Origin: Liolophura sinensis
Lineage: Eukaryota > Mollusca > Polyplacophora > Chitonida > Chitonidae
DNA: 64,000 bases
Assembly (NCBI RefSeq): GCF_032854445.1
Contig: NC_088300.1
Coordinates: forward strand, 78,903,084-78,967,083
Direction: 5' to 3'
Below the pieces are notes generated by a model. The model saw only the letters and a list, made by a program, of their open reading frames with translations, made no database searches and had not been told where the DNA came from. Made by a program: the position numbers and the translations under genes. Positions 1,726-61,200 of this stretch are shown here, one piece after another. How positions within the stretch are numbered: the first letter of the stretch is position 1; each line of letters opens with the position of its first letter.

Positions 1726-1881
1726 CGAAAAATCCGAACTAGAACTATCCCTGCATGAAACAGCCCGTATAACTCCAGCTAGCCATTCCCACTCGGATAT
1801 TTTACTCAGTTTCAACCTTCCTGCACTTCGAACAGCAAGAAATCTTTTTCCTACTACTTCTTCCCTAGACTTAAACGCCAT
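1726..1881 (-). CDS. KDM3: KDM3/JMJD1-family H3K9 demethylase, first coding exon (partial gene)
   Basis: KDM3 proteins are nuclear Fe(II)/2-oxoglutarate JmjC enzymes that remove mono- and dimethyl marks from histone H3 lysine 9. Only the N-terminal 52 codons lie here. They read from MAFKSREEVVGKRFL through a WEWLAGVIRAVSCRDS segment, which matches the family N-terminus (VGKRFL, then W..GVIRAVS.RDS, best recalled from JMJD1C). The exon ends in phase 0 at a GTAAGT donor (1725-1720). I chose the ATG at 1881 because it has a strong Kozak context (G at -3, G at +4) and puts VGKRFL about ten residues in, as in relatives. The ATG at 1890 has a T at -3. The open frame continues to 2004 but begins there with GTG. 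The JmjC domain is outside the window. The head-to-head REEP neighbour supports the call. Confidence 0.82.
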
Positions 1882-2630
1882 TTCACCCATCAAGTATCCA
1901 TTATGACGTTTTACACGAAATTCTGTGTACCAATTTACAACAAAATTTTGTGGAATGCCTTCCCTCTCATTTACACTGTGCCTGTGTAAGGATACAGCCT
2001 CCACCTACATTAGGCTGGGTCAAAAGGTCAACACTCCCTGTCTTCATCCGCGCTAGTCAATATAGTCCCGTCATTTAGCAGACAACCCTCCTTCATGTTT
2101 TGCACCCACATTGTTGTTTGGTCGTTTGGAATCAGTTTTATGAGTTCTTTAGCATGTTTTCAACAAACATCAAATTTAAACATTCGCAAATGTGAACAGA
2201 ACAAAAATAGACTACGTGCAGGCGGAGTCCGAAAGACTTGTTTCATTCCCCGCATATCTTCACTGACAAGCGGTATCAGCTAGCCCCACTTACATGTACA
2301 CGAACGCTTAACCGGTACCGTTTTTTTAACAGTTATTCACAACCACAGCAAATTAATTCAGTAGGCTACCAATATCACCGATGCAGACTCACATAATTAA
2401 AATACAAGCTGCATTAAAGGACTGAAACCAGAAAATAATTCAACATGTTGATGTGTGCAAGCATGACAGTGTTTATGTCATGTGACAACCTGCGCCTAGC
2501 CATGACGTCAACATTCAAAATGTCTGCCGTGTAACGAACAAGTAGAGGCGGTAAACAAATGAAGAAATTGGTCGTTTTGGACGGCTGATTTACAGTTTTG
2601 TGGAGTAATAGCTGTACACATAGCAGGAGA
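1882..2630. promoter_or_regulatory. Putative shared bidirectional promoter, KDM3-REEP
   Basis: The two divergent start codons (1881 on minus, 2631 on plus) are only about 750 bp apart, so both 5' UTRs and core promoters should lie here. I see no convincing TATA box placed for either gene. CpGs are more frequent than in the introns, and a perfect TGACGTCA element is present. Transcription starts cannot be placed from sequence. A further non-coding 5' exon for either gene would weaken the shared-promoter reading. Confidence 0.6.
2503..2510. promoter_or_regulatory. CRE palindrome TGACGTCA
   Basis: A perfect 8-bp cAMP-response element (CREB/ATF site) lies about 120 bp upstream of the REEP ATG and about 620 bp upstream of the KDM3 ATG. 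A half-site (TGACGT) is at about 1904. One 8-mer can occur by chance; the position in a short divergent promoter is what makes it notable. Confidence 0.45.
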
Positions 2631-2662
2631 ATGATTTCAGCACTAGTTTCGCGTCTCGTTAT
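2631..2662 (+). CDS. REEP: REEP exon 1 (start codon)
   Basis: Encodes [10 protein letters not shown] plus two bases of the next codon, then a GTGAGT donor at 2663. REEP1-4 proteins begin with a similar short stretch (M-x-S-x-x-x-S-R-L-V), and the split codon AT/A joins exon 2 to give [10 protein letters not shown]. The ATG has A at -3. A 32-nt exon is too short to be found by coding statistics; it rests on the family N-terminus, the donor and the exact phase fit. Confidence 0.85.
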
Positions 2663-5600: not shown

Positions 5601-8600
5601 TTTTGTCCATGCAACTTTTCTTAAAGCACTGAAGCTACATGTACATGTATTTCCATGAAACTTACCATACATCTCTCCTATCATCTAAACTTGTTGAAGT
5701 TTAATTACAATTGTGTGATTATTTTCATAATTACTCCGTTCAGGTACTTGGTGCAGTAATGGATTTTCAGATACGTTGTATTCTCTTCTTATTGCTATAT
5801 TTCTTCATTCAAACTGGATGCACCAGTTGTGCAATCAGTGCTCACAAAGAATGGCCAATAAAACAATCTGTATGAACACAGATTTTGTCCATGCCACTCT
5901 TGCCGAAGTATTGCACCAATTTCCCTGAAACTGTGCGTATATCTTTTATATCATCTAAACATGTACACAGGGTACTTGTTACCCCCATTCACGTACACAG
6001 GGTACTTGTTACCCTCATTCACGTACACACGGTACTTGTTACCCCCATTCACGTACACAGGGTACTTGCTACCCTCATTCAGGTACACAGGGTACTTGTT
6101 ACCCCCATTCACGTACACAGGGTACTTGTTACCCCCATTCACGTACACAGGGTACTTGTTACCCTCATTCACGTATACAGGGTACTTGTTACCCTCATTC
6201 AGGTTCACAGGGTACTTGTTACCCCCATTCAGGTACACAGGGTACTTGTTACCCCCATTCAGGTACACACGGTACTTGTTACCCCCATTCAGGTACACAT
6301 GGTACTTGTTACCCCCATTCAGGTACACAGGGTACTTGTTACCCTCATTCAGGTACACATGGTACTTGTTACCCCCATTCAAGTACACAGGGTACTTGTT
6401 ACCCCCATTCACGTACACAGGGTACTTGTTACCCTCATTCACATACACAGGGTACTTGTTACCCCCATTCACGTACACAGGGTACTTGTTACCCTCATTC
6501 ACATACACAGGGTACTTGTTACCCTCATTCAGGTACACAGGGTACTTGTTACCACCATTCACGTACACAGGGTACTTGTTACCCTCATTCACGTATACAG
6601 GGTACTTGTTACCCTCATTCAGGTTCACAGGGTACTTGTTACCCCCATTCAGGTATACAGGGTACTTGTTACCCCCATTCAGGTACACACGGTACTTGTT
6701 ACCCCCATTCAGGTACACATGGTACTTGTTACCCCCATTCAGGTACACAGGGTACTTGTTACCCTCATTCAGGTACACATGGTACTTGTTACCCCCATTC
6801 AAGTACACAGGGTACTTGTTACCCCCATTCACGTACACAGGGTACTTGTTACCCTCATTCACATACACAGGGTACTTGTTACCCCCATTCACGTACACAG
6901 GGTACTTGTTACCCTCATTCACATACACAGGGTACTTGTTACCCTCATTCAGGTACACAGGGTACTTGTTACCACCATTCACATACACAGGGTACTTGTT
7001 ACCCCCATTCAGGTACACAGGGTACTTGTTACCCTCATTCACGTACACAGGGTACTTGTTACCCTCATTGGCATACACAGGGTACTTGTTACCCCCATTC
7101 AGGTACACAGGGCACTTGTTACCCTCATTCACGTGCACAGGGTACTTGTTACCCCCATTCACGTACACAGGGTACTTGTTACCCCCATTCAGGTACACAG
7201 GGTACTTGTTACCCCCATTCAGGTACACAGGGTACTTGTTACCCTCATTCACGTACACAGGGTACTTGTTACCCTCATTCGCATACACAGGGTACTTGTT
7301 ACCTCCGTTCAGGTACACAGGGCACTTGTTACCCTCATTCAGGCACACAGGGTACTTGTTACCCTCATTCACATACACATTGTAATAATGCTTTTCACGC
7401 ATAATGCTAAATGAGCTACCTGAAGACACATTTAATTATCGTGATGTTGCACTCAAAGCTCTGTATTTCACACACATAATATCGGTGAATGTCTGAGAAT
7501 AATATCATTCTACTTTTTAGGGGGTTTAGAGGTCAGTGTATTGTATTTGAAGGTATTACCTGACTTGAACAGCTGTACGAATTGCTCAGGCAAGCTACCA
7601 CTGCTATCTGAATGCCTTGTTATAAATATTTATTTTGTGAACGAGAAGTGTCAAATGCCAGTATTAACATTCGATTAAAATTTGAGAAGACCTTGGTGTT
7701 GCAACAGTCATTAATTTGTTGAAAGCAACAACAAAGTAATTTTTTGACAATACCCTTGTTATCTGCAGTTCTCAAGCTTTCAGAAAGTACCACTGTGGTA
7801 ATGTGCAAGAATCTACATGTATGTGCATGTGTTCAGGAGAAAACGTGTCGACATGTATAGATAGTCTGTAAGCTGTAATGATTGTTTAAAGATTGAATTA
7901 AACTGAAAATCTGTAGCTTATTTGTAGTTTACAAATCCTTTGATAAAAGTAACGAAGTAGAGGTCAGCATAACTTTACATGTGCATACTCCAGATAGAGT
8001 AGGTGGAATGTTAGCCTTACACCAAAATGGGTTGTAGGAACTGGTTTCTCTTCAGGTCTGTGTACAGTACATGTAGCTCAGTTGCTATAGGAACCATCTG
8101 CATGCTGATTGAGTGTGTTTGCAACTCTACCCATCTTCAAAACTAGGTTAAAAAAGTGCTGTTTCCTCAGGAGTGCCAAGTACAGGTGTACGTGTACATA
8201 TGGGTAGGAGGAGCTGAGAAGTGGTTCACCTTGCCGTAATCCCTGAAGTAGTACTGTACATGTAGTGCTCAGCAGTGCAGTGGTGGACCAGCTTCCAAGT
8301 AGATGTTATCACCTTGTAACCTGGAGCCTTATCCCTACACATGGCTGTCCCTGGACTTAGGCCTGCTAGTGGTAGATCAAGACTAAGAGGAGACGGTAAC
8401 CTCTAGCAGGATTGGCTTACATCAGGAGTAGGACTGGTTCAACAGCAGCAATCCTTATATGTAAACATCTAAACATTGAATAAGACCCAAGGATTAAGAG
8501 AAAGCAAGCTACATGTAGTTTTCCAGACAAATTTGCAAGTTTCTGTTCCAATTAAATGGACAATGCATGTACCATGTTTCTGTCTTGTGAAGCAGCTAAG

Positions 8601-11600: not shown

Positions 11601-14600
11601 AATACCAGGTTGTGCAATAGGTAGAGTGTGTGTGTCCAGCTAGCTGAGGTTTACCAACTCACACATGTACAATGTATTTACATGTGTGTTAGGCTTGTAG
11701 ATGGGTGGTCATGTAATGTGTATGCACATACACTGTATGTCTAATGTTCCAGAAGTGCATTTGTGGTTATCACGTGTGGATGACCAAGGATTGACTTGAT
11801 GTCAGATCATAGCGGAAGCTTGTACTGACTAGTTTACCCCTCACCCCACTGGAACAAGGGAGGGTAATGATGTACATAAACATACATTGGCGAGATAGGA
11901 AAACAAGTCTAACTGACAACAATTGATCTTTGAGATCAAAATGTTTATCTCGATGTTATGACTAGCACATTTCTAATAACTGGACTAAGAGGAAAGCCTG
12001 CAATAGCTATATGTATCAGGGGTCAAAATGTTGGCTCATTCACTGGTTTATAAGAGCTCAAAATAAAAACGATGACCTTAAGGTGAGCCCGGGTCATCGG
12101 TCACCAAAAAGATTGCCTATACTTTGTGTCATGCAAATATACATTTGTTCAGACACATAATGTACATGTACATGTCTTAATGATTGTGGTATTTTATCCA
12201 TTTCCGTATTGGCGCCTTTAAGTCATATTTGGTGACCTAAATTTTGGTTGAAGTCATCACTCAGAAGAGTCCAACCACAGTTGGTCCAATCCAATCCAGT
12301 CCCATGATTCCTTATTTTGGGATGTGCTTTTGGTACTTTTATCAATCATTTGTGTTTCAAAACTATTACTTCATTTGGTAGTTAAGGTTTCACCTCTCTA
12401 ACCAGAGAGGACACATTGAATGAGCAGTAGATAGGGATTTCTTCAGATCCAATCAGTGACAACAAGTCTGAATCAGGAGCGGCAAACACAGTGATGGCAG
12501 GGTTTGTGCTTAATGGGTATATGATAACATGTCATAATCTGTGGAGAATCACGTCAGCTATGTTCACACAGGACCCAAGGTGAAACAGATTGCTAGACAC
12601 CCTTTTGTTATTGAGATTTCCATTTTATGAAGATGAGCCTAATTCTGTAACTATACATGTATAAACAGACATGTCAAATTGATACATACAGAATACATGT
12701 AGATATATCTTGCGATGCTCATTGTGTTTATTTAGTAAAATGCAGTCATAAAATTGGTTTGTATTTCATTTCCTCATGTTCAGTGTATTTGTTACAACTC
12801 ACACATGTATATAGAATGAAATTCCAACACTGGTTTGTGCTAATGCTAACATTTTGTTGTCAGTATGATTTTAAAATGATTGAAATGTTGGACCATGCCA
12901 CATAATGAATGAACATTACAGACGGGTTCATTGTGTATTATGCATGTACCTGTGTATAGTGGAAACCTGATAGGAGTTTTGCTTTTTTTTTAGGCATTCC
13001 TACCTGTAAATGTACCTGTGTATAGTGGAAACCTGAGAAGAGTTTCACTTTTCTGAGGCACTCCTACCTGTACATGTACCTGTGTATAGTGGAAACCTGA
13101 GAGGAGTTTCACTTTTCTGAGGCACTCCTACCTGTACCTGTACATGTACCTGTGTATAGTGGAAACCTGAGAAGAGTTTTGCTTTTTTTTAGGCATTCCT
13201 ACCTGTACATGTACCTGTGTATAGTGGAAACCTGAGAAGAGTTTCACTTTTCTGAGGCACTCCTACCTGTACATGTACCTGTGTATAGTGGAAACCTGAT
13301 AGGAGTTTCACTTTTCTGAGGCACTCCTACCTGTACCTGTACATGTACCTGTGTATAGTGGAAACCTGAGAAGAGTTTTGCTTTTTTTTAGGCATTCCTA
13401 CCTGTACATGTACCTGTGTATAGTGGAAACCTGAGAAGAGTTTCACTTTTCTGAGGCATTCCTACCTGTACATGTACCTGTGTGTAGTGGAAACCTGAGA
13501 AGAGTTTCACTTTTCTGAGGCACTCCTACCTGTACATGTACCTGTGTATAGTGGAAACCTGAGAGGAGTTTCACTTTTCTGAGGCACTCCTACCTGTACG
13601 TGTACCTGTGTATAGTGGAAACCTGAGAGGAGTTTCACTTTTCTTAGGTGTCTAGGTGTCTACAATACTGGGTGTCTAACACTGCCCTGTGGCACATATA
13701 TGTATGTGAATCACTCATATACAAGGCTCTATGAATGCCACCCATGAATTGTATGTACATGTTGTTCTAACTGAGACTAGCCTGCAGCTCATCATCTGTG
13801 TATGTGTGTGAGAGAAATGATTTGCTGGACATGTTTGTACATGTATTTGTGGTTTCTACTTTAAAGGCTACATGTACTTAAACAGCCATGATGGAGTTTG
13901 GCCAGGTACTGAAAACCCTGTGGTGGACTTGGTTACATTGGCTGGACTAAGACTATAGGTACACAAGCGTTAGTCTGGTGATTGAGTGACCATCGAGGAG
14001 GTACACTGCACTGCACATGTATGTGCCGTTCAGGCTTGCCCTTTTCACTCGCTCAGTGGCGGGTTATACCCAAGGTGGTGTGTGGATGATGCCAGTGGTA
14101 ACAGTTTGGAGCAGCTGAGGGTCTTCTTACCCTGAGTTCATTGATCAACAAGTGGAGTTAACTGGGAGGCTTCCACTGTCATGGGTGCTGGCAGATATTT
14201 TCTTGTCATTTTAAGTTTTGCTCATAAGCTACCTGTGAAGTCTTCATATCACGTAGGGTGAGAGTTACAATGTACCTAAACAGAAAATCTAATAAATCTG
14301 GAGGACTTGTGGCTGTATTGTCAAGACAGATCAGAATTTGTGTAAGTGTAAACTGCTGGCAGAAAGGGGTGTAACCGCGCCCCCAGCATCTCTCTGTGGT
14401 TGTGTTCACCTCCCTGCCCTCCAGATGGTTTGGCTGTTAGGCCTGGACCCAGGTGTAATCAAGGAACTGCTCCTGACTATAGAGGTATTCATGGCACCTT
14501 ACATTTATGCTGTTTGCAGACTGCTGTTTGGGACCCTTTACCCAGCGTATGCTTCCTACAAGGCTGTCCGGACAAAGAATGTCAAAGAATATGTAAGTAT

Positions 14601-26600: not shown

Positions 26601-29600
26601 TACATGTCAGTGGACATGGACCTGTGATGTGCAGTATCAAATCTTAGGCTCCCTTATCTCTACATGTCAGTGAACATCAACCTGTGATGTGCAGTATCAA
26701 ACCTTAGGCACCCATACCTCTACCTGTCAGTGAACATGGACCTGTGATGTGTTGTATCAAACCCTAGTTATCCCTTACCTCTACATGTCAGTGAACATCA
26801 ACCTGTGATGTGCAGTATCAAGCCTTAGGCTCCCTTACCTCTACATGTCAGTGAATATGGACCTAGTTATCCCTTACTTCTACACGTGAGGGGTCCACCA
26901 GCCAAATCTCCTGTCAAGGCTGGCTGGAGATGATCAGGTCTCTGAAGGAAATTGTTATTTGGCTGGAGGATTAAGGGTAGTTACCATGTTCTAGCACTAC
27001 CCAGAGCTAAGGCAGACAGAGACCATTTGCTGGGGCAATCAGTCTTTGGCAACTGTCACTGTTCAGTTTGGGGAGGAAGCCTTCAACCACAATGCTCTCT
27101 CTTTGCCCACTCATTTTATTCTGGCTAATCCCCAGGCCTGTACACAGGTCAACCTTGGCTCTGTGTAATTTGGATCAATGCTTACATGTACATGTAGTTG
27201 TCTACTAGAGGTTTTGCCTGCGAAAAACTGACCAGAATTTCTTCTCTATACTCTGTTCTGATCTGATTGCATTCTTCTCCACATCATTTTGTGTGCTTTA
27301 TTCTCTACATATACATGTAGTTGTGCAAAATCTACCTTTGCTTGTGTCTGTCCATGTACATGCACACGTGGATCTCTTTTTTCCCAGCCCTGTATAAAAG
27401 CATACAGTGCATACACAAGTACAGAACATGTAGTTCATGATGTCCTGGACATCCCCTCTAACTGGACAGGGTGCAGTGCATGTAGTTCATGATGTACATG
27501 TACTGGACATCCCCACTAACAGGACAGTGTACAGTGCATGTAGTTCATTATGTACTGGACATCCCTACTAACAGGACAATGTACAGAGCATGTAGTTCAT
27601 CATGTACTGGACATCCCCACTAATAGGACAGTGTACAGTACATGTAGTTCATCATGTACTGGACATCCCCACTAACAGGACAGTGTACAGTACATGTAGT
27701 TCACGATGTACTGGGCATCCCCACTAACAGGACAGTGTACAGTGTATGTAGTTCATCATGTACTGGACATCCCCACTAACAGGATAGTGTACAGTGCATG
27801 TAGTTCATCATGTACTGGACATCCCCACTAACAGGACAGTGTACAGTGCATGTAGTTCACGATGTACTGGACACCCCCACAAACAGGATAGTGTACAGTA
27901 CATGTAGTTCATCATGTACTGGACATCCCCACTAACAGGACAATGTACAGTGCATGTAGTTCACGATGTACTGGACATCCCCACTAACAGGACAGTGTAC
28001 AGTACATGTAGTTCATCATGTACTGGACATCCCCACTAACAGGACAGTGTACAGTGCATGTAGTTCATCATGTACTGGACATCCCCACTAACAGGACAGA
28101 GTATACAGTGCATGTAGTTCATCATATACTGGACATCCCCACTAACAGGACAGTGTACAGTGCATGTAGTTCATGATGTACTGGACATCCCCACTAACAG
28201 GACAGTGTACAGTGCATGTAGTTCATGATGTACATGTACTGGACATCCCCACTAACAGGACAGTGTACAGTGCATGTAGTTCATCATATACTGGACATCC
28301 CCACTAACAGGACAGTGTACAGTGCATGTAGTTCATGATGTACTGGACATCCCCACTAACAGGACAGTGTACAGTGCATGTAGTTCACGATGTACTGGAC
28401 ACCCCCACTAACAAGATAGTGTACAGTACATGTAGTTCATCATGTACTGGACATCCCCACTAACAGGATAGTGTACAGTGCATGTAGTTAACGATGTACT
28501 GGACACCCCCACTAACAGGACTGTGTACAGTACATGTAGTTCATGATGTACTGGACATCCCCACTAACAGGACAGTGTACAGTACATGTAGTTCACAATG
28601 TACTAGACATCCCCACTAACAGGACAGTGTACAGTGTATGTAGTTCATCATATACTGGACATCCCCACTAACAGGACAGTGTACAGTGCATGTAGTTCAC
28701 GATGTACTGGACATCCCCACTAACAGGACAATGTACAGTGCATGTAGTTCATCATGTACTGGATATTCCCATTAACTTGACGGTGTACAGTACATGTACT
28801 TCACGATGTACTGGACATCCCCACTAACAGGACAGTGTACAGTGCATATAGTTCATCATGTACTGGATATTCCCATTAACTTGACAGTGTACAGTACATG
28901 TAGTTCACGATGTACTGGACATCCCCACTAACAGGACAGTGTACAGTGCATGTAGTTCATCATGTACTGGACATCCCCACTAACAGGACAGTGTACAGTG
29001 CATGTAGTTCATCATGTACTGGATATTCCCATTAACTTGACAGTGTACAGTACATGTAGTTCACGATGTACTGGACATCCCCACTAACAGGACAGTGTAC
29101 AGTACATGTAGTTCACGATGTACTGGACATCCCCACTAACAGGACAGTGTACAGTGCATGTAGTTCATCATGTACTGGACATCCCCACTAACAGGACAGT
29201 GTACAGTGCATGTAGTTCATCATGTACTGGACATACCCAATAACAGGACAGTGTACAGTATTAATAATTTCCCCTCCGTGTTTCACAGATTGACGGGCGT
29301 TTTTCACTTCTCAACTGTCACTTATCCACAGTACATGTTCATGTATGTTTACAGCATATGATATTATTTGTTGTTTCAGGTGAAGTGGATGATGTACTGG
29401 ATTATATTTGCCTTATTTACCTGTGTGGAGACATTTTCAGACATGTTCATTGCATGGTGAGTAGATCTAGTCATATACAGATACTAGTCTAAACAGCTGA
29501 AATGAAATCCCATTACTGGGAGGTAATGAAGAAAGTCTGTATGGTTTGTTGTACGTATTGTGTACTTCACTGTGAATATTTACAGTATACAGGAAAGCTT

Positions 29601-32600
29601 TACATAATCATGTGGACCAGGATATATTAGTATAGCAGATTCATATGCACTTAAGAAACTAAGACATCATGATAATAATGTCTTAAAACCTTGGACTCAA
29701 ATTAGAAATGTTGATCATGAAACGTCAGAAGCAATTTTGTGCCAGCCAGTGTCCTTGGCTATAATACCTCCAGGCTGTTAAAATAAATCAGCTGATTGTT
29801 TAGTGTGGTGGAAAGATGCTATTCTGTATGACTCATTTCACCAGAGCATTGTCAGCAGCATTGTGTGGTAATAGCTTTGTGCCAAGACAGCTGCTTAGAT
29901 AGCACCTGAAAGTGATTCCACTGCATCACAGGGATGGTATAGAGTGATCTCCCTTTGTACGTGCTGACTATCTGTCTTCAAGTTCAGAAGTCACAGAAAA
30001 ACTATAAAACTTTTTTGTGACATTAATTAGAAGTTTAGTCACCAGAGAGTTTGTCTCAGATTGAGATTGAAATGCAGTTGAGGGGAATTTGTGGATCAGC
30101 AATTCAAGAACACTGTTGTTGGACTGGTCGGGCCTGTGTCATTTTACATGTATGTTTGACATAATATGTTTCAATAGTGTGTCAGGTTAACAGGACCCTG
30201 GGTTTTAGCCATTAGGCATGCCTTGTGCAAGACTTTTAGAATGGCTGTCATGGTTCTTCCTTGATCATAGGTTATTCAATACTGGGAGAGCCTACATAGA
30301 GGATTAGGAAGCAAGGTAGTCATCCGTCCAGTGTCCAGTGTTTTTGCTAACCTACATGTACTGAAGGACAGGTTTTCTACATGTTCGAAGACACTGTTCT
30401 GAAGCATCAAAAAGAATGTTGAAAGTGATGTCAAATCCTAATTAGGCAAACAAACCTGCCAGTCTTAGAGTTCATATGTCATGTCTGTTATCTGTGATGG
30501 GTGGTTTAAGCTGGCAACATCAAAACTGAGAAAGCAAACCCCATTAGGGTGTAATCAAACTCTTAAAAATCAGCTAGAAGGGTACATAAGATGGTTGGAT
30601 TTCTTTCTTTTAAATCTACAGTTTAGAATAACATCCAAATACATAAAAAATCATCTCAGTTGCCTTCCTGGGATGTAAGTCAGTCAAACTGTAGCTTTCA
30701 TAAGACCATAGAACCCAGTCCAGAAATTAAGTACCTTGTGGTTGGGACGTCAGTATTAATAGCTGTCAAAACAAGTCCAGGGGAACTCACAAGTGGTCTG
30801 AGCTGGCCCCCCATCTCTAGTTAGTTCATTGCTGACATTATTTCCAAAAATTTCTGACCATTGACTAAAAATATGTATAAAATAGAGGGCTCCAAGATAT
30901 AAAATATGCCTCAAAAACAAGGAAAAAAAGTTTTTCACTTTTGTGGCTTACCCCTTAACACCATACTCTCTGTTTAAAGCGTTCATTTTCACGTATCCTT
31001 TAAGCTGAAAACAGTCGATTACTCAAGTATGTCATTCAGGTATTATGAAGGGTGGCTTTAACCCTCCTTTGTTTCCTGGGGTGCCACTAATACTCATATC
31101 AGAGATTAAAGCCATGGGTGGCTTTAACCCTCTTTTGTTTCCTGGGGTGCCACTAATACTCATATCAGAGATTAAAGCAATGGGCTTTCGCACCTACCGT
31201 GAGCAGTGTTCAGGAGATGTCACCTTTGATGAGTGATTTTAATCAACAATTAGTATTTCAGCCCAAGTCATTAATTCTTGCTTAACGTAGTCAAGCAACA
31301 CAGTTAGTTTTGGATTGTTTTCTCTTTTAATCGTACTCTGTAGCAGGTCAGAAACTGCTGGCATTGCCGTAGCTGTCAAACAGCCATTGTGTTGCTGTAC
31401 ACATTCACAATTAGTTAGGAGCTGACTCCCTGGTCCAAAGGAGAGACAAAGCCCATGGGATAGCGTATATCAAAGCTGCATTCATTGGAAACCATCACAT
31501 GGTTGTATCTACTTTTCTTTCACTTTAATTGGCATACCGAAGATTGATCAAACTAAAGACTTTGTTTTACATCCTCCACACTCTATCACCAGAGTTTATA
31601 TACATATATTTAAAGCCTAATTTGTCCTCCCTGCCACTAAAATTTAACTGCCCGCCAAAATTTTTTATTCCAACTCCTGTCAGCCCAGCAAAGATTTGGC
31701 GGTGGTGAGTATAAAGCCCGTCTGTCTTGTGCGGTGAGTCCACGCTTTTCTCTGGCCAGATCGTCTGGGAACTTGAAAAAAGTAACTCTAGGGTTCTTGG
31801 ACGACCTGTTTTTACAACCGTATAGCAAAAACCATTTCGTGGAGAAATTTGAATTGCTTGTTGTCACTTTTGTGGCTTTCTTAACACAAAACTAACACAG
31901 TATATACAAGGGTAGCTAATTATGTCTAAATAACCAACCTGGACACTAATCCTTTAATTATCAGTGCTTTTTCTTTTTCAGGATCCCGTTTTACTATGAA
32001 ATCAAGATTGTGTTTGTCTTATGGCTGTTGTCTCCTGTCACAAAAGGCTCCAGCTTTCTCTATAGGAAATTTGTTCATCCACAATTCTCCAAAAGAGAAA
32101 AGGTAAATATTGTGGGGAGATGTTTTGAAAGAAGTGCTTTATCAAATTACTAGTACATGTATGTAGCTGTAATTAGAAAATGTCATGCTTTACATGCAGC
32201 TGTTTTTCTTTCCTCTATTATGTGTTGCCACCAGTCTCACAGTGGTAACACATAACTCATCGATACAGTATTTTGATATCAAATGGGTACATATTTACCT
32301 CTGAGATTCAGAAACTGGCACCAACCAATAACAGGATTAGAACAGTGTTTGCCTCACAGCCTTCTTCGCCATAGTACACTGTACATGTAGTGTACCTTTA
32401 ACATGAACTTTGATACAATTTCTGAAAGTTCTGTAACAACTTGAACAACACATGGGGAGAACCTGGTATGCTGTGTATTTAAACAGTTTATGCTTTTGTT
32501 TTGCAGGAAATAGATGACTATATAGCTAAAGCCAGTGATAAAGGTTATACCACCCTGATTAGTCTAGGCTCCAAAGGTATTACATATGCAACAAATGTGG

Positions 32601-35600
32601 TCTTACAGACTGCTATTAAGGTGAGTGCCTGGTTCAATGTTTTCTCTCTCTTTTCTGTACACCACGGTGACTTCCATGTGTGTTTTAATATGTCACTGTT
32701 GTGCTGTCTGATACTCAATTTTGATTGGCTTAAATGGACAATTGAAAAACAATCAAAGTGTTTTGCCTTTCTGAGGACTACTTTTGAGCAGAACAGTTAG
32801 TGCGCCAGTGTAGTTTTGTTAGTTTGGGACAAACTCTCCCTTGAATAAATTGTCAGTAAATTGCTTCAACAAACAGAATCTGACAAGTGGCTTTCAAAAT
32901 ACATACATGTATATACACTACACCAGAAAGTTGTGAAATGCCATTGTTTTCTATTTGTGTGTAAAATGAATATAGGTTTTAGTCATTCATTCATGAAAAA
33001 TTGGTCACTTGGGGATACAATGTACATGTAGTTCTTCATATCCGAGAGGTGACAGCCAGCCAGGTATGTCTCTGCAACCATCATGGTGGTCATCTATGCA
33101 TCAGATAGAACAGGTATGAATTATCCAATACACTGGTCAGAGTACCTGTGGCTATTAGTTCCTTACCTTTATCAGGTGCGGGCAACAATAGTCTTACATC
33201 ATATCTGTTAATCCTTCAGTTCACAAAACAATTTTTCAGACATTTTTATTTTTGTAGCAGTTTATCAGATTGAATTCAGCTTGGTTGAACTTGGTACATG
33301 GTGTCACAAGTTATAGAACAAGTTCTTGTTTGTGAGTGGTTTGTCCACTTTTGACAAAATGCTGACGGTTTTTATCCCATTACGGACACTGACATTTTTC
33401 CACTGCTGTCAGAATGGCCCACCCTGAGTGGAAACATGGAACAGTGTAGCCTAATGAATTAGAGAGAGCTATCAGAGGTCCCTTCCCAAAACACTAGGCA
33501 TTTTCCTGTTCACGTTTGAGTCTCTGTAGCTTTTTTGCTACCTACCGCACTTTTGTTGGACCAAAATCGTGTAGGAAACCCTACGAAGGCTGCAAGTGAC
33601 GACTGGAAAATAGGGCTGGCTGTTAGCATACAACGTGTAATTCATTAGGCTAGGGACACGAACCTTGTTTCACAGATGTCATACATGTATGATAATCACA
33701 CATATGGTGACCTACAAAATGTCGTATGATAAATGTACGATTCAAAAACATTGCATGCTGCTTAGAAAACAGTTTTGGTCCATTTTGTCAAATCACAACC
33801 ATTTTTTGCTCTTTTTGAGGTTTGACACACGTGAAGCTATCATTGGGAGGGACATGTATGTTGAATATGTGGAAAAAGCAGAATGCTTGTTTGTCTAAAA
33901 GTTACTCATTTCATGTAAGTTTACACACAGAACACATACGAAAGTAAAACAGAATGGCAACTTACTAGATGGTTTATGTGACAGAGAAGATGAGTCTTGT
34001 AATTTGAAATTGCAGAGATTGGTTGAAGCATTGTGAAATATGTAGGAGGCAGTTTAACAGAGTTATCTCACTGTCAGTGGGGGAGGAATCCGTCTTGGAT
34101 GCCCATAACTGCCTGGGGTTTGGCGACCAAATGTCTGATAGGCAGATCGGTCGCCATGGATATCTGAGGAGCAAGCAATCAGTTGCTGACCAGCCAGAAT
34201 TGAATAGCCGCAATCTGCCAGCAGAACTAGTTGAAAAACCATCTGCATGGCGTAATGAAGACCTTTGGCTTCTACCCCGAGCTCTGATGAATTCTATTGA
34301 GGTCACCTTCTGTGAGGAGTGCCATTGATTGTATTACCATTGGGCAGCATATGAATGAGGAAGGGGAAGAAAAAAAAACGTGCCGTTCTTCTTGTCATAC
34401 TTGGCTTGATCAGATCTGGTCAGAAACCCATCTGTTATTCCAGAGGCAAAGCTTGTGCAACCGGATTTCTTTTTATGAACATGTTTGGCCTACAGTTAGA
34501 ATAGCTATGATTTGTGTTGTTAGAACTGATGAAGTACATGTACTTGTAAGAGTGGGTTCCCATGGTACCAGAGAGATGGAAGGACTGGATTCTGGTGTAT
34601 TTGTCAGGAAGGTGTATGCTTTTTTGTTTATAACAGAAACATTTTGTGTGCACTGATAACAGGCCAAACTTTTCTTCTTTTCTTGTTTCGTTGTGTATGA
34701 TTATCAGGCCAATCATACATATTAACTGTACATATTTAATATTTATATCGTTAATGAACACATGTAATACATGTGCATGTGCCCTTTTCTGCTCTTGTCA
34801 CCTAACCATTTGATCGTAACGATTATATTTAGGCGCATTTCTGTATGTGCTCATATATATCCAGTAGTTGCATGTATTTCTAGATTTGTTTATAGAAAAT
34901 AATACGTCCTCTAAAAAGGAAAATAAGTTTGGCCAAAGAATGCATATACATGTTTGAAAGCTAAATAAAATAAAAACCATCTTGGTTCTGTTTAAGTCAG
35001 AACCCTATGTACTTTAAACAGAGTAGAAACCAGTACATTGAAAACTTCTAGACATGTTTCTGACTTAACAGTGGATCAAGGTCCTGTATTATACTAGTGC
35101 CACCTTGCGGGATTAAAAAGTAAGACACCTGCCTATTGTTGGGGGTTGTCATAACTGGACTAGTGTCACACCAGGATATATCAAGGAGGAAACTGGTGGT
35201 AAAGAATGATAATTGAGTGGTTCGATTAGTTGCATTACATCTTTGATTTAAAAATTAGCAACGGTTCAAACGTGAATCAGGCTAGGTATAAGACTTGAGT
35301 GTTGTTAATTTTGGTACTTTTTAGTCTTTGCACTCAGCATGAGGGGTAGGCCAAGCACTGGCCTGCCAGTTGTAGTCTGGCATTCCAGTGAGGTCATCAT
35401 AAATGCATTGTGACTGGACTGCTAAAAGGAAACACCATTGTGGTAGGGCAGATATAATGAAATGTACGCTGTCCATTGTCTTTTGTTCCCAGGGTCAATC
35501 AAAGCTAGCGGACCAGATTCGCAGGAGCTACAGTATGAGTGACATAGCATCCTCAGGTTCCGGAGATGCAATTGAGATAATTGACGACTCCCCAGAATTC

Positions 35601-38600
35601 AGCGAGGATGAATTAGGTTAGTTATCAGTGCTAATTTTCCCAGCTTCTCTGCTAGAGTGGTGTGCGAGTGCTCAGAACAGGAAACTCCTGTCATTCTGGC
35701 TGTCTGTTGATTCTGTGTAGCTGGACGTTTTGTGTGTGCCTCTGACAGCCTCGGTTTACAACTCTGCCCACCATGAAGTAGTGTCGTGGCAGAACAGCAG
35801 ATAAGCCAGCCTGTACATCTGATGCCTGTCACCTCATCTGTCTTCCTTTATTACACCCTGTGTTTATACTTGATTATACTCTTATGTACAGTACACAGTA
35901 GAATTTTACTTACTTACACATAGGTGTAATTCTCACACATCTGTAAATGAATTTCTACATTAACTGCATCATATACTTGTAGTAACAGTATTATGTTTCT
36001 TAAAATATATTTTTCATTTACGTTGTCGGACATCTTCAAATCCCAGATCCTTGCAACGTATGATTTCTATTGCATTTCTCCACCACCATATGTGTGCTGT
36101 TGTATATGTATATATTTATGAACATTTTAAACTTTGTTGCTGTTTTAAGTCATTTGGTTGTCATCTACTGTAGACAATGAACAAGAAACTGTATCCTGAA
36201 TTCTCCATCTAATGTAGATGTCTCATCAAGTAGGTGTTGTCAGTTCACTTATATGTACTGTCCGTTTTTCTTGTATCATTCACTTGTTAGAGAAGGGCAT
36301 GTCAGAGCAGGGTGAGTTAAGCTGTGTTTTATATCTGTTGTCTTTACCCACTTTTAGCCACACACACCCTTGCCCAGCTTCCTCAGTGCTTTCACGTTGA
36401 TCCAAGTCTGTAGCACTTTGTACCTGTATATGTGCGTTTCTGTCTTCACAAGACAAACATGGGTTGTAACTTGGAGGACTGACTGGTAATGACACATGTT
36501 GTTGCATTCCTCACTGTTTACATTTTGAGGTGTAATCACACAGTTTCATGTTCACCTGAAACTCACAAACATGTCACCAGAATAGGGACATGAAGATTCC
36601 CCATAGCCTAGCCTTTCTTCACCCATCAACTAACCAACACCTTGTTCAGTGTGGTGTACTAGTTAAATAGCTAAAATCACCGGCGCTTGTTAGTTCCCCT
36701 AAATAAAGTATGTATCCAAGTATATACATGTACTTCTATGGATGTAGAAATAGAATATCAACATACACCTACATGTATACCAATACAGCTACTATATGTG
36801 CAGGAAAAACAGACCCTGAGATAAGTTCTCTATGATGTGAAGGTACATACATATGTGCATTAAGCAATAGTGTGTTAACAGAACCTGTAGGTGTGTCAAA
36901 AGCAGGTATATCCCTTGGAAGTAAGGAAAGCAAAATATTCTCCTAGTTGATTCCCTTTGTCTGGTCAAGCCACAAAATTTCAAAATTCCTAAATTGTTGA
37001 TCTTGTCATTTGTACTGTAGAATGAAGATATGAAGTACCCAGAATCATACTTTTGTTTTTGTTGTGCAGATAATAGGATAGCAGAGGACAATCGAGAGCT
37101 GGAGAGGAAACGTGACCAGGTGAAGAGGAGGAAAAAGATCCAGCGGGCAGCCTCTAGTGCAGGTCGTAAGTAAAACCACCTTTATTCCTCAGTCCCTGTA
37201 AGTCTGACCACCAAGCGCCTCCGTTGTAGATGAGAGAATACTGGCAACAATGGCCGGTGGCAGGAGGCTGGGAGAGCCTGTTGAAGATGAATTCTCACAT
37301 GGTCATAGTAATTTGTATGGTGCAGCATTGACGAGGAACATGTAGTCCAGAGAGTAATGTATCTCACAGTGGAGAGATATACAGGTGGCCGGCAGTGGAC
37401 ATACAATGCGCTTTGTGTTGCCGATTTTGACATCTTGTTCATCTATAGGTCTAACATGCATTGCTACAAAATTTAGAAATAGTTTACCAGATTTTTGTTT
37501 TTGTCTTTTAACAGCCTGTAGGCTATTTCTGATTTCAAAAATGTCCATCTGTTTCGCTTTTTAGTGATTAAATTTTTGTTGGGTAATGAGAATGATATTT
37601 GCTAGAGACAAGGTTGCACAGTTAAAAGTGACTTGGAAAAGTGGTTTATGAAAAAAATTGTAATTTTAGTAATTTCCTGATGATCTTTGGAAATGATGAA
37701 AATGTGAAAACCTTGTGTTAAAGAAGTATGATGTGTAAGTGTTTGTGGAGTTGATACTGTGAAGACGAATTCAATTTGTGATGTAGCAGAAAAAGTGTGA
37801 AGCTGTTAGTGGTGTGATAATCTGCTGACATTTGAGTGAAATGTCGTGAGGGGATCATTTACTCTGCCAATTGCCTTCTTGTGAATAGGCATTAACAAGT
37901 AAGCTCCTGGAAACTATTCACATAATCAGTCCATCAGAAGAAGTTTGGGAGTTTTGAATGGAAAGTCTTATCTAAGAATGCCCGCGGCAGCTCCCTCTCT
38001 TCACTCACACTGGCCTACTCAGCACAATTAAATCCCAACAGCAGTGCATCTGTAATCTGAATGACACAATTCTCAAAATCAGATCTGTCTTCAGAGTAAT
38101 TTGTGCCTTCAAAGAGGTTAGCTAGGCTGTGACTGATAAATCTGACTGCGAATTCCATTTGGCTTCAATGAATAGCTCGGCGTCAGGACTGACAAAGGAA
38201 TAAATGGGCTGGATGCCCGGTGCCATTATAATAGATGATGGAAGCTAAGACCTTGGGGATATGCAGCCGTCAAAAACCCATAATCCATCAGACTCGAGAA
38301 TCAATTTGAATCCAGAACAAATTCAGAGTTTGGTACTTTGATTTGGCCATCTCTCTATGGGTCTAGGACATAGCCCCACTCCTGATATGATTGGTCGCCA
38401 AGAGAGAGGACCTCTGCATAATTTCAGACTCTGTGAGGTGTCGCCCTCGCACACAGGTTCCTTCTCATCGATAGCCTAGAGAAATATCAGTACAACAATG
38501 ACTGGAACTGGTGGTGCTGCGAAGGAATTTGGTGTGAATATCACCTATCTGATTTTTGGGTATTTAATTTACAAGTATGGGGTTATTTTATTGGCATTTC

Positions 38601-41600
38601 ATGCTGACTCAAGGCTTACACTCTGTACCTATCTGAATTGCGCATGTGCCTTTCACCTAAACCTGGGACTATTATATACATGGTATACTCCCAACTTTCA
38701 CAGACATGTATGTATATGTTTATGCGTTATGGCTGTCTAGATACATAACTTGGGTATCTCCAGCCACAGCATTGACAGCTGGGTGTGCTCAATCAAAGAC
38801 TCTCATTATTCAGGGTGCAGTGTGATTAGGTTAGGGGCTCATATCCCTATATACCCTCAGCTTTGCAAACTAATAAGGTTAGGTTTACCATGAAGATCTA
38901 CAGTAACTGATAAGATTGTAGATCCTCTCATGCTAGCAGATGATTTCATGTTTCCAGATATACACATGTATTTGTATTCCATATTGTTGGCAGATTATCA
39001 CTAGATAATAAAACTGCTGATGCCTGCATATTGTACATGTATGACGTGTATGTTGATTTTGTTACACACGTACTCTGACAATAGTTGGTTCTACTTCCAG
39101 CTTTGTACAGTCTGTCAGAGGAGGAATCTGAGACGTCCTTAACCAAAGAAACGAGCACAATGCATCGTGGTAAACATCATGAGTCCCGCTACAGCACCAG
39201 AAGCAGCTATTCCACATCAGAGGTAAGTACTGAGCCATAGTTAGACAGGGAATGGTATCACCAGATATACCAAGGCTTGATCATGGAAGACCAGCTTCAC
39301 TAACTCGGCTCTCAACAGCCAACACAGATTAATAAAGGCACATGTAGTTCAGCTCTCCCTAGATCGGCTACAGTTTTACCTCATTAGGCTTTATCGCATT
39401 AAGCCTGCTGAGGTGCTATGGTTTCCTCAACTACTATCATGTAAGTCATATATTCTTGATTGCAGCATAAAACACTAATATGAAAAGTAAATGAATAAAT
39501 GTAAAAAAAATGCACAATTAAATGCCAGTGAGGTATGCATATCATCATAGTCTAACACCTTAGTGAGGAATTTGATAAGAGCAGCTCACTAGCATCTCAG
39601 GCGTATAGTTCAAAAATACTGCTTGCTTGAATCTTACATATACAAGATCAAACAGCATGCTTGCATATACTTGAAATATATCTATTTCCAAACGTAAAAC
39701 GTATTGTGAAGAGCATAGGAAATAACCATGAAAGATACATGTAATTAATTTAAGATGGAGTAATTGTTTTATACTATATAGACACTTAGCAGTGTACTTT
39801 AGTGGTTGTTACATTTTTATCTTGTTCAGTACTCAACCTTGTTACACTCAGCCTTTTCTTTCTGTGCTTTACTTTTTCAGTTTTTTACCTTTCTTCTGCC
39901 ATTATGATTTTAATCCTCTAGGCTGTTCCATTACTCACTGAGAGTATTCCACAGAGCTTGCCAGTCTCTAAGCGTTACATTTCCACAAGTGTTCACACTT
40001 CCACTTCCAAAAGTGTGCACACCTCCACCTCTTCTGGTGTGTACAAATCAACATCTGCCAGTGTGTACACCTCCACCTCAAGGCTGTACACCTCCTCCTC
40101 TACTGGGAACTTGAGTTGTCTGCCAGATTACAGCTCCTCTTCCTCTTACTCACACGGCAAATATACCACCCCTGGTTTGCTGAGCATTAAGTCCCCAAGG
40201 TCCACTGGCTACACATACCAATCAACCGAGTGGTCCCCATCAGAGTACACATCCACACCCAGGTCCCCCAGCTACCAACATTTCTCCAAGTCTTTGACCA
40301 GCCTGGGCTCCTATTCAGCATACCCACGGTCCAACCTGAGCCCCTACTCCACATACATGTACTCTCTGTCCCGAAGGCACTGGAGAACCAACTTGAATTA
40401 GACAGCCCTTAGTATTTCTTCCAGTCCGACCAGCCTAGGCTCCTAATCCACATATGGTAAATGACCTAAAGTTTCGCACGTGAATTGTGTTGGCGGCAAG
40501 ATGATAGAAGAAAATGATCAGAATCGTACTCCATGCGAGGTTTTTGAAAACTACCAGGATGTACAATGTGCTTTTGCCCCTTCTCAGTCCCACTGTGTAC
40601 GAGTTTGATACATCGGGAGACAGGATTCGTTTGAGTTCTTATCATATTAGGATTTCACACAACACCATCACTGGCTTTATATCAAACTAAAATGCATGTT
40701 TATGATTTCCTGTATACAGTTTTGCTCAGGCATGGTTTACTTGTCGCCAGCAGCAGGTATGAGATCGGGAAGAGCTATATATCTGCAAGGGATATACAGA
40801 ATGCTCGACCTTCATTCCCAGCTTATCCACAAACTAAAGAAGTCTACAAGTATGGTAAACAATTGCTCTTTGGCAGCTTGTGTAAGACTTTTTCCTAGTT
40901 TAAGAACCATTTCAGGACAAAAGACCCGGCGAACTAAAGCCCCATGTTCACTATAATACTATATTAGATTATTGAGAATCATTGTCTTTAGAGATGTCAG
41001 GCTATATTGTGTAAATTATATTTTGAGAATAGAAAATCAGCTTGCAGCTTGTGTAAGACTTTTTTCTATTCTAAGACCACAAATCTGATACATATGTCAG
41101 TATTTTCTATCCTGGAAATATAGGACCTGGCACAATAAGGCAGAGAATAAGCCCCAGAGAAGTTGGATAAGAAAGTGCAAATTTCAAAATCTCAGCACAA
41201 TTCTGTACATTTCCAAAACAGAAGTGTAAAACTTGGTCAAAACACTCATGGAAGTTATAATGCCATAGAAGAGATGGTTGCTTAGTAGTGACCCGTCAAA
41301 AATGCACTCTCAATCAAAAACTTTTTGTTTAAATGAGGCACTGTGTTTTTTATTTACAGTGTGAAGATCAACTTTAACCAGAACAATATCTTTACTGGAA
41401 CTTTCCTTTGTGTACATGTATTTCTACGTGCTGTCAGAGTTTTGATTGTGGTAACTTTTGTCTTCATATGTAAAAAATAAACTTTATAATGTGATAGTTT
41501 TTTCATAATTAGGCAACTTAAAAATCTGTATTTCCTCCATACTCTGTCAGTCATGTTTCATAGTACAGTGAACTAACCGAGTCACTATGGAGAACAGGTT

Positions 41601-58200: not shown

Positions 58201-61200
58201 TGTGGAACCTGAAGGTAGGTGATTATAACATCATCTGGTCACAAATACACAGAGGAAAGCGTGTGGAACCTGAAGGTAGGTGATCATAACTTTATCTAGT
58301 CACAAATACACAGAGGAAAGCGTGTGGAACCTGAAGGTAGGTGATCATAACATTATCTAGTCACAAATACACAGAGGAAAACGTGTGGAACCTGAAGGAA
58401 AGTGATCATAACATTATCTAGTCACAAATACACAGAGGAAAGCGTGTGGAACCTGAAAGTAGGTGATTATAACATCATCTGGTCACAAATACACAGAGGA
58501 AAGCGTGTGGAACCTGAAGGTAGGTGATTATAACATCATCTAGTCACAAATACACAGAGGAAAGCGTGTGGAACCTGAAGGTAGGTGATTATAACATTAT
58601 CTAGTCACAAATACACAGAGGAAAGCGTGTGGAACCTGAAGGTAGGTGATTATAACATTATCTAGTCACAAATACAGAGGAAAGCGTGTGGAACCTGAAG
58701 GTAGGTGATCATAACATCATCTGGTCACAAATACACACAGGAACCTGAAGGAAGGTGATCATAACATCATCTAGTCACAAATACACAGAGGAAAACATGT
58801 GGAACCTGAAGGAAAGTGATCATAACATCATCTAGTCACTAATACAGAGGAAAATGCATAGAACCTGAAGGAAGGCAATTGTGACATCTAGTCACAAATA
58901 CACACAGGGAAATGTGCAGAACCTGAAGGAAGGTGATCATAACATCATCTACTCACAAACACACAGGAAAACGCGCGGAACCTGAAGGAAGGTGATCATA
59001 ACATCATCTAGTCACAAATACACAGAGGAAAGCGTGTGGAGCCTGAAGGAAGGTGATCATAACATCATCTAGTCACAAATACACAGAGGAAAGCGTGTGG
59101 AACCTGAAGGTGGGTGATTATAACATCATCTGGTCACAAATACACAGAGGAAAGCATGTGGAACCTGAAGGTAGGTGATTATAACATCATCTGGTCACAA
59201 ATACACAGAGGGAAGCGTGTGGAACCTGAAGGAAGGTGATCATAACATCATCTAGTCACAAATACAGAGGAAAGCGTGTGGAACCTGAAGGTAGGTGATT
59301 ATAACATCATCTAGTCACAAATACACAGAGGAAAACGTGTCAAACCTGAAAGAAGGTGATCATAACATCACCTTGTCACATAAAACTGAGGCCAAACAAA
59401 ACAATAATATCTAGCAACCTCGATTTAGTTAACAGTAAATGATCGATGTTTTACAGCATACTCCAGAATATTTCACTTATACAACAGCAACTAGAATTAA
59501 GGTGGGATGAAACCGGGCAGCGCCCAAGAGAAACGCAAAACCATCCCATATACAACCAGAGAAGAAGGTGGCATGACATCCCCACAGCAACAGCACTGGT
59601 GACACATTCCTCTCTCTTTGTGCTGTGCTAACACACTCCACAACGTAGGCCCCTCTAGCCACATTGTGGGGAGGACAAGCACATCAGAACCACATCACAG
59701 GAGAGGCCAAGCAAAGCCAGAACATCTACATGTATCCACATCACAAGAGAGGTCAAGCAAAGCCAGAACATCTAACCACATCACAAGAGAGGTCAAGGAA
59801 AGGCAGAACATCTCACAAGATTACGAGAAAGGCCAAGCAAACCCAAAACATTTAACCACATCATGGGAGAGGCCAGGTAAAGCCAGCATATCTAATCTCT
59901 CACTTGGAGAGGTCAAGCAAAGCCAGAGCATCTGACCACATCATGGAAGAGGCCAAACAAAGCCAGAACATCTGACCACATCCAAGGACAGGTCAAACAA
60001 ATCCAGAACATTTGGTCACATCAAACGTGAGGACAAGCACACCCGTAATATCTAGCCACATCACGGGACAGGCCAAGCTAAACAACATCAAAGGAGAGGC
60101 CAAACAAAGCCAAAAGGTGAAGCCACATCAAAGGAGAGGCCAAACAAAGCCAAAAGGTGAAGCCACTTCAAGGGAGAGGCCAAACAAAGCCAAAACATCT
60201 AGCCACATCAAGGGAAGATCACTGCTGTATAACATAACTACCAGGCAAAAGAAAGGTTTCACCGTATTTTTTGTCATAAAAAAAAATAAAAGCGCGGTTC
60301 CGGATTTGATTCTAAGCAGGACATGGTGTATGACTGCATCGTTTCCTCTACCAGAGCGCATCGTCACGAACGCAGCAATTGCAATTGTGAAATTGCGATA
60401 ACATGCAAAACGTCCTTTTGAGGCATGGCTCGTGATGCACGTGCGGTAATGTTGCATAAATACTCTTGCTCGAAAGAGCAGACATTCAGTGACCGAAAAA
60501 ACACCAACAGTATGCCAAGACTTACGCAAGCGCAACGAGACCAGGCCATCGGTATGTCCACCATGGGAGTCTCGCAACGTCACATTGCAAGAACGTTCAA
60601 CTGCAGCCAAACCACCATCAGGAGGTTGTTGATATGCTATCAGCAGACAGGCCAGACCAAAGACAGACCAAGATCGGGAAGACCGAGGGTAACAACTGCG
60701 CCTGAAGATCGCTACATCCGGCAGATCCACCTCCGAAGCCGATTCGTCACGGCGACGTCAACAGCGGGGACGGCACTAGGCCATGTCATCAGCCCCAGGA
60801 CAACACTGCGTCGTCTTCGTTCAGCTGGTTTACGACCTTACCGCCCCTTCCGTAGGATGGCCTTGACCCTTTTACACCGTCAACGCAGACTGCGATGGGC
60901 ACATATTGTACGTCGGTGGCAGCGACGTGACTGGGCGAGAGTGCTGTTTACAGACGAGAGCAGGTTCTGTCTATTCTGGAACGATGGCAGAGTTCGAGTT
61001 TTCCAACGAAGAGGCGAGCGTCTCGCGCCAAACTGCGTAAGAGACGTTTATCCGTTTGGAGGCGGAGGCGTCATGGTTTGGGGAGGGATTTGTGACCAAA
61101 TGAAGACGCAGCTGGTTATTGTGCGAGGTAATCTGACTGGCAAGCGATACCCTTGATGAGGTACTGAGACCTGTCGTCGTTCCTTTCCTTTAATGACAGC

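Follow-up and report, generated by a model that had tools for sequence, protein, structure and literature searches.

How old is the neighbourhood of KDM3 and REEP genes, and what has kept the two together? The question is raised by a 64,000-nucleotide stretch of a chiton genome (hereafter the window; C6:78,903,084-78,967,083, plus strand), in which a KDM3 gene and a REEP1-4-class gene adjoin on C6 in a divergent, head-to-head layout. The initial annotation had placed their starts about 750 bp apart; the two ATGs are measured to be 750 bp apart, which agrees with the customary description of a bidirectional pair as 5′-to-5′ neighbours whose start codons lie within about 1 kb. The genome searched was that of one chiton (609,464,459 bases in 632 contigs, with a C6 of 82,489,547 bp). 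It is near certain that the pair is real and that both genes are correctly identified.

The minus-strand gene begins with a coding exon of 52 codons (window positions 1726-1881, ATG at 1881, GTAAG donor after 1726, phase 0), and an in-frame ATG three codons before its start is a possible alternative. The first 51 codons match the PF22989 (DUF7030) profile with an E-value of 2.8e-16, which, together with the in-phase joining of this exon to those that follow, led to the rejection of a chance open reading frame. Exons 2 onward lie to the left of the window on C6. In particular, exon 2 (C6:78,872,461-78,872,306) and exon 3 (C6:78,869,687-78,869,571), both on the minus strand, each have an AG acceptor, a GT donor and phase 0. 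When joined, exons 1 to 3 yield a full-length PF22989 match (E = 4e-25) and a match to positions 1-66 of the 98 in PWWP_KDM3B (PF22988, E = 1.4e-19), both above cut-off. The PF22989 match spans the junction at intron 1, with exon 1 covering profile positions 1-46 and exon 2 covering positions 44-60, the latter falling below the cut-off when taken separately. A genome-wide PF22989 search returned these two matches, both in this gene, and the KDM3 gene of the pair is the only one found in the genome. Membership in another JmjC gene was rejected because PF22989 was found in no other gene of the genome; the corresponding PF02373 search gave 19 matches at E-values up to 10, one of which, at C6:78,815,924, lies inside the KDM3 gene.

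The remainder of the gene was traced using a human KDM3A sequence as the query. Matching exons continue on the minus strand, in query order, to about C6:78,815,051, giving a gene of about 90 kb that encodes a PWWP domain, a cysteine-rich zinc-finger region and then a JmjC domain; the leftward extension that the initial annotation had proposed therefore reaches JmjC from exon 1 through collinear exons. Most of these matches score between 30 and 129 bits. Two are weak when considered alone, namely the one covering residues 183-219 (26.6 bits) and that of exon 3 (23.9 bits), an exon accepted because the PWWP match bears it out. About a dozen out-of-order or opposite-strand matches to the query (23-28 bits) were set aside as chance. 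The gene model was built from genomic exons and leaves gaps at KDM3A residues of about 145-182 and 220-522. Two catalytic exons have KDM3B chains as their best solved-structure matches (6.1e-32 and 9.5e-29) and JMJD1C as the next best (6.9e-24 and 3.1e-19), and the JmjC exons contain NLHLDVSD and FIPAGAPHQV, which we take to hold the iron-binding HxD...H residues. The cysteine-rich region between the PWWP and JmjC domains aligns to human KDM3A, with none of nine listed Pfam models reaching the cut-off there, and a 241-residue exon (L006:6004-6726) matched no Pfam family. Overall, the PF22989, PWWP_KDM3B and JmjC exons of one collinear gene bear out the earlier assignment of the minus-strand first exon; judged by its sequence, the gene is a member of the KDM3/JMJD1 lysine demethylase family, with a predicted H3K9 demethylase activity.

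The plus-strand gene opens with a 32 nt coding exon (2631-2662, phase 2), followed on the same strand by exon 2 (14520-14592), exon 3 (29380-29456), exon 4 (31982-32102) and exon 5 (32507-32620). The five exons join at compatible phases, with splice sites that follow the consensus, into one open frame of 139 residues, in which the TB2/DP1/HVA22 domain (PF03134) is found with an E-value of 4.6e-31. The reading of the first exon as REEP1-4 class was likewise correct. The class was judged from identities to human REEP1 and REEP5 sequences. The window gene is 70-77% identical to REEP1 across exons 2-4 and 33% in exon 5, as compared to 37-42% identity to REEP5 across exons 2-4; it is nearer to REEP1/3 than to REEP5. 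It also has a short N-terminus before the hairpin, presumably a feature of the REEP1-4 class. A PF03134 search of the genome gave nine matches at E-values up to 10, two of them above the cut-off: the window gene and a gene on C8. The C8 gene shows 57% and 60% identity to REEP5 in its two best exons and 43% in a third, versus 45% to REEP1 in its best exon. A REEP5/6 identity for the window gene was rejected, the REEP5/6-class gene being located on C8. The window gene is then the only REEP1-4-class gene found, which is a reading and not a proof, with five sub-cut-off PF03134 matches elsewhere left aside.

A probable exon 6 (35493-35616, plus strand, limits counted by eye) has a weak BLAST score of 21-25 bits. 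Within this weak match, the sequence RRSYSMSDI stands at the place of the 14-3-3 lynchpin serine that, according to Tinti et al. (2012; PMC3411107), is conserved after the hairpin domain of vertebrate REEPs. The gene model reaches as far as the probable exon 6, which gives the gene a length of at least 33 kb. Separately, a 159-residue open frame rich in Ser, Thr and Tyr (39922-40401, plus strand), which has no Pfam match, is possibly a C-terminal REEP exon.

The adjacency can hardly be put down to chance, because random adjacency is expected at only about 2/28,010, or 7e-5; this is our own estimate, which assumes one gene of each kind and uses the 28,010 protein-coding genes given for the published Liolophura japonica assembly (PMC11068029). 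The comparison of adjacency covered one mollusc genome, with human and amphioxus taken from the literature. The initial annotation had named KDM3A-REEP1, KDM3B-REEP2 and JMJD1C-REEP3 as human neighbours; these three pairs stand as listed, but the set was incomplete, its fourth member being REEP4 (8p21.3), whose human neighbour we take to be HR. In human, KDM3A-REEP1 and JMJD1C-REEP3 are divergent, KDM3B-REEP2 and HR-REEP4 are tandem, and KDM3A and REEP1 lie about 100 kb apart yet are linked. Since two of the four human pairs are not divergent, the linkage there would have outlived the head-to-head layout, and the pair may be seen in its undisturbed form in the chiton if these layouts hold.

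Tinti et al. (2012; PMC3411107) assign human REEP1-4 to paralogons, with KDM3B, REEP2, EGR1 and CTNNA1 in the 5q31.2 region, a 2R paralogon, and REEP4 at 8p21.3; HR appears in the legend of their Figure 4. The same legend gives the amphioxus single genes 185339, 269996 and 124949 as the counterparts of REEP1-4, EGR1-3 and HR/KDM3A/JMJD1C/KDM3B, by which a REEP-EGR-KDM3 linkage in amphioxus is suggested. Taken together, the chiton pair and these published amphioxus counterparts uphold the earlier claim that the linkage is older than the vertebrate genome duplications, which fits what is largely in print already for chordates and is strengthened here. Because the genome is that of a chiton, the origin of the linkage would go back to the protostome-deuterostome ancestor and not merely to a time before 2R; its presence in the bilaterian ancestor, for which one protostome is the evidence, is very probable, while how old the head-to-head layout is has to be inferred. 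The chiton locus is like the paralogon of Tinti et al. in having both gene families in one neighbourhood, and it differs in having one pair and not four, in belonging to a protostome, in the 750 bp between its start codons and in an EGR gene that is 30 Mb away from the pair.

The wider linkage on C6 extends this comparison. A single match stands out for the EGR zinc fingers, at C6:48.93 Mb with 91% identity and 183 bits; among the 190 matches listed (150 of 830 candidates scored), the runner-up in score has 58% identity and 98 bits. Vinculin-family exon matches fall on C6 in 25 of 29 cases and form two clusters there, assigned through the closest solved structures of one exon each to alpha-catenin (35.45 Mb) and vinculin (39.8 Mb). 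The three genes lie on the same chromosome as the KDM3-REEP pair at distances of 30-43 Mb. C6 makes up 13.5% of the assembly, and the probability that EGR and alpha-catenin, which were preselected for the linkage test as vinculin was not, would both be there by chance is about 2%, which is not negligible. In human, CTNNA3, VCL, EGR2, JMJD1C and REEP3 are all located at 10q21-22. The presence of EGR, alpha-catenin and vinculin on C6 fits the KDM3/HR-REEP-EGR paralogon of Tinti et al. (2012; PMC3411107).

The 749 bp interval between the start codons (1882-2630) is a candidate bidirectional promoter, expected to contain both 5′ UTRs. Its observed/expected CpG ratio is 0.77, versus 0.32 across the 164 kb joined region, where 4.1% of 750 bp stretches have a ratio at or above that of the interval. 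The strongest sign switch in skew, calculated with 750 bp flanks, falls at 2440-2460 (GC skew at 2460, combined GC/AT skew at 2440) and ranks first of 16,250 overlapping positions, both for GC alone and for GC plus AT; the GC-skew switch of 0.49 exceeds the next peak of 0.48 by a thin margin, and a rank among overlapping positions is not a probability. GC skew is negative leftward, toward the minus-strand gene, and positive rightward, toward the plus-strand gene. This pattern of skew and CpG content could be left by outward transcription from a shared region, and base composition, an indirect indicator, tips the balance modestly toward a single bidirectional promoter serving both chiton genes. 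Counting against the shared-promoter reading are the width of the CpG-rich zone, which exceeds the interval (ratios close to 1.0 within KDM3 intron 1, at 1300-1599, and as high as 1.58 within REEP intron 1, as far as about 2999), and the skew at 1200-1699 in KDM3 intron 1, which is slightly positive (0.01-0.12) and thus opposite to the expected sign.

A scan of the interval for 16 promoter patterns found no occurrence of 11 of them. Two sites are weak leads: GTCACATGAC (2477-2486, minus strand), the sole copy in the window and presumably M-box/TFE-like, and the palindrome TGACGTCA (2503-2510, plus strand), one of two in the window, which we take to be CRE-like. Their nominal P values (0.0135 for the CRE-like and 0.0045 for the M-box-like site, from 2,000 simulations) are uncorrected for the 16 tries, two CRE sites as observed were reached in 11 of 100 whole-window shuffles and the M-box was present in 32 of 100, and the sites are therefore leads only. 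An Rfam scan of the window at gathering scores returned no matches.

The whole explanation that we consider probable is an inherited, ancient, divergent KDM3-REEP1-4 pair, most likely with one CpG-rich bidirectional promoter. The bilaterian ancestor would have had the KDM3-REEP linkage, which vertebrates would have duplicated to four pairs (KDM3A-REEP1, KDM3B-REEP2, JMJD1C-REEP3 and HR-REEP4). In the chiton, a single CpG-rich bidirectional promoter, some 0.75 kb long, would drive outward transcription of both genes, and they may be co-expressed. Where two promoters lie within one open region, a break between them would be expected to harm one or both genes, and the pair would stay joined until duplication lets the copies separate. 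A shared promoter as the reason for the retention of the pair is a tentative and somewhat doubtful part of this account.

Such behaviour would have precedents. Pairs of unrelated genes are reportedly kept adjacent across animal phyla (Irimia et al., 2012), and the chiton pair is like that metazoan microsynteny in joining unrelated genes. According to Marletaz et al. (2018; PMC6292497), bidirectional promoters account for 25% of neighbouring protein-coding genes in amphioxus, and most members of a set of ancestral bidirectional promoters have disappeared in vertebrates. The chiton pair resembles those chordate promoters in that invertebrate genes lie 5′-to-5′ within about 1 kb; their set was partly separated in vertebrates, as KDM3-REEP would have been if the human layouts given above hold. 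The 372 pairs of that set differ in having CAGE from amphioxus, mouse and zebrafish, whereas the chiton pair is known from sequence alone. KDM3, JMJD and REEP are unnamed in the main texts of three microsynteny papers (PMC8851819, PMC6292497 and PMC12407938), and a search of the open-licence literature found no paper on a KDM3-REEP shared promoter or on a protostome pair; apart from Tinti et al. (2012), the papers that it brought up include work on disease genetics, on acupuncture and on the genes close to a human variant.

Passive retention, in which an ancient linkage persists through slow decay of gene order with no common regulation beyond closeness, has a substantial, if minority, chance of being the explanation. 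EGR, alpha-catenin and vinculin share the chromosome at 30-43 Mb without tight linkage, and this loose linkage implies that slow chromosome-scale change alone may keep genes together; moreover, head-to-head closeness is common, as the 25% of amphioxus neighbours in Marletaz et al. (PMC6292497) attests. However, passive retention explains a shared chromosome better than an exact 750 bp adjacency over the age of bilaterians, and the CpG-rich interval with its skew switch resembles what is expected of a shared promoter. It is unlikely that the pair is instead a long-range regulatory block, held together by an enhancer in the introns of KDM3 or REEP that regulates the neighbouring gene, although the long introns of both genes (about 90 kb and at least 33 kb in total gene length) and the linkage of human KDM3A and REEP1 across about 100 kb, which a shared promoter cannot explain, speak in its favour: tandem arrays occupy 28.5% of REEP intron 1 and 41.8% of intron 2, and neither KDM3 nor REEP is a developmental transcription factor. 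An independent origin of the chiton and vertebrate adjacencies is highly improbable, even with one protostome genome searched, in light of the estimated rate of random adjacency (2/28,010), the sharing of C6 by EGR and alpha-catenin as human EGR1 and CTNNA1 share the 5q31.2 paralogon (PMC3411107), and the amphioxus homologues in the synteny figure legend of the same paper.

Returning to the inherited divergent pair, it is quite improbable that its promoter has been shared since the bilaterian ancestor because the products of KDM3 and REEP1-4 act together. Under such functional coupling, the H3K9 demethylase would open chromatin and its REEP1-4 partner would shape the ER; REEP3/4 keep the ER membrane off mitotic chromosomes. 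After duplication, some of the four pairs would have kept the shared promoter and some would have lost it, and, if true, the four vertebrate pairs would test naturally what role the coupling has. More broadly, the protostome case in tight head-to-head form is new here and would make the KDM3-REEP neighbourhood a feature of bilaterians; if the human layouts hold, one ancestral divergent pair and its four vertebrate descendants would constitute a natural experiment on bidirectional promoters. KDM3-REEP loci are also tied to disease: according to Tinti et al. (2012; PMC3411107), REEP1 is associated with spastic paraplegia, and KDM3B and REEP2 with the 5q31.2 deletion of myelodysplasia.

The surrounding DNA is rich in repeats. 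Tandem arrays located between 5963 and 60215, whose units measure 25-66 bp, account for 28% of the window (14 arrays in our merged list), and a 30 bp array at 5963-7379 is open in four of six frames and so produces long ORFs that are spurious. There are 222 copies of the heptamer ACATGTA in the window and 213 of its reverse complement, where a few would be expected for a heptamer in 64 kb at even base use. Past the 3′ end of KDM3, gag-/pol-like frames of 500 and 888 aa (L005:886-5055, minus strand) were recognised by eye as an LTR-type retroelement. Toward the right end of the window, a Tc1/mariner-like transposase frame (60422-61156, plus strand) matches HTH_Tnp_Tc3_2 with an E-value of 8e-10.
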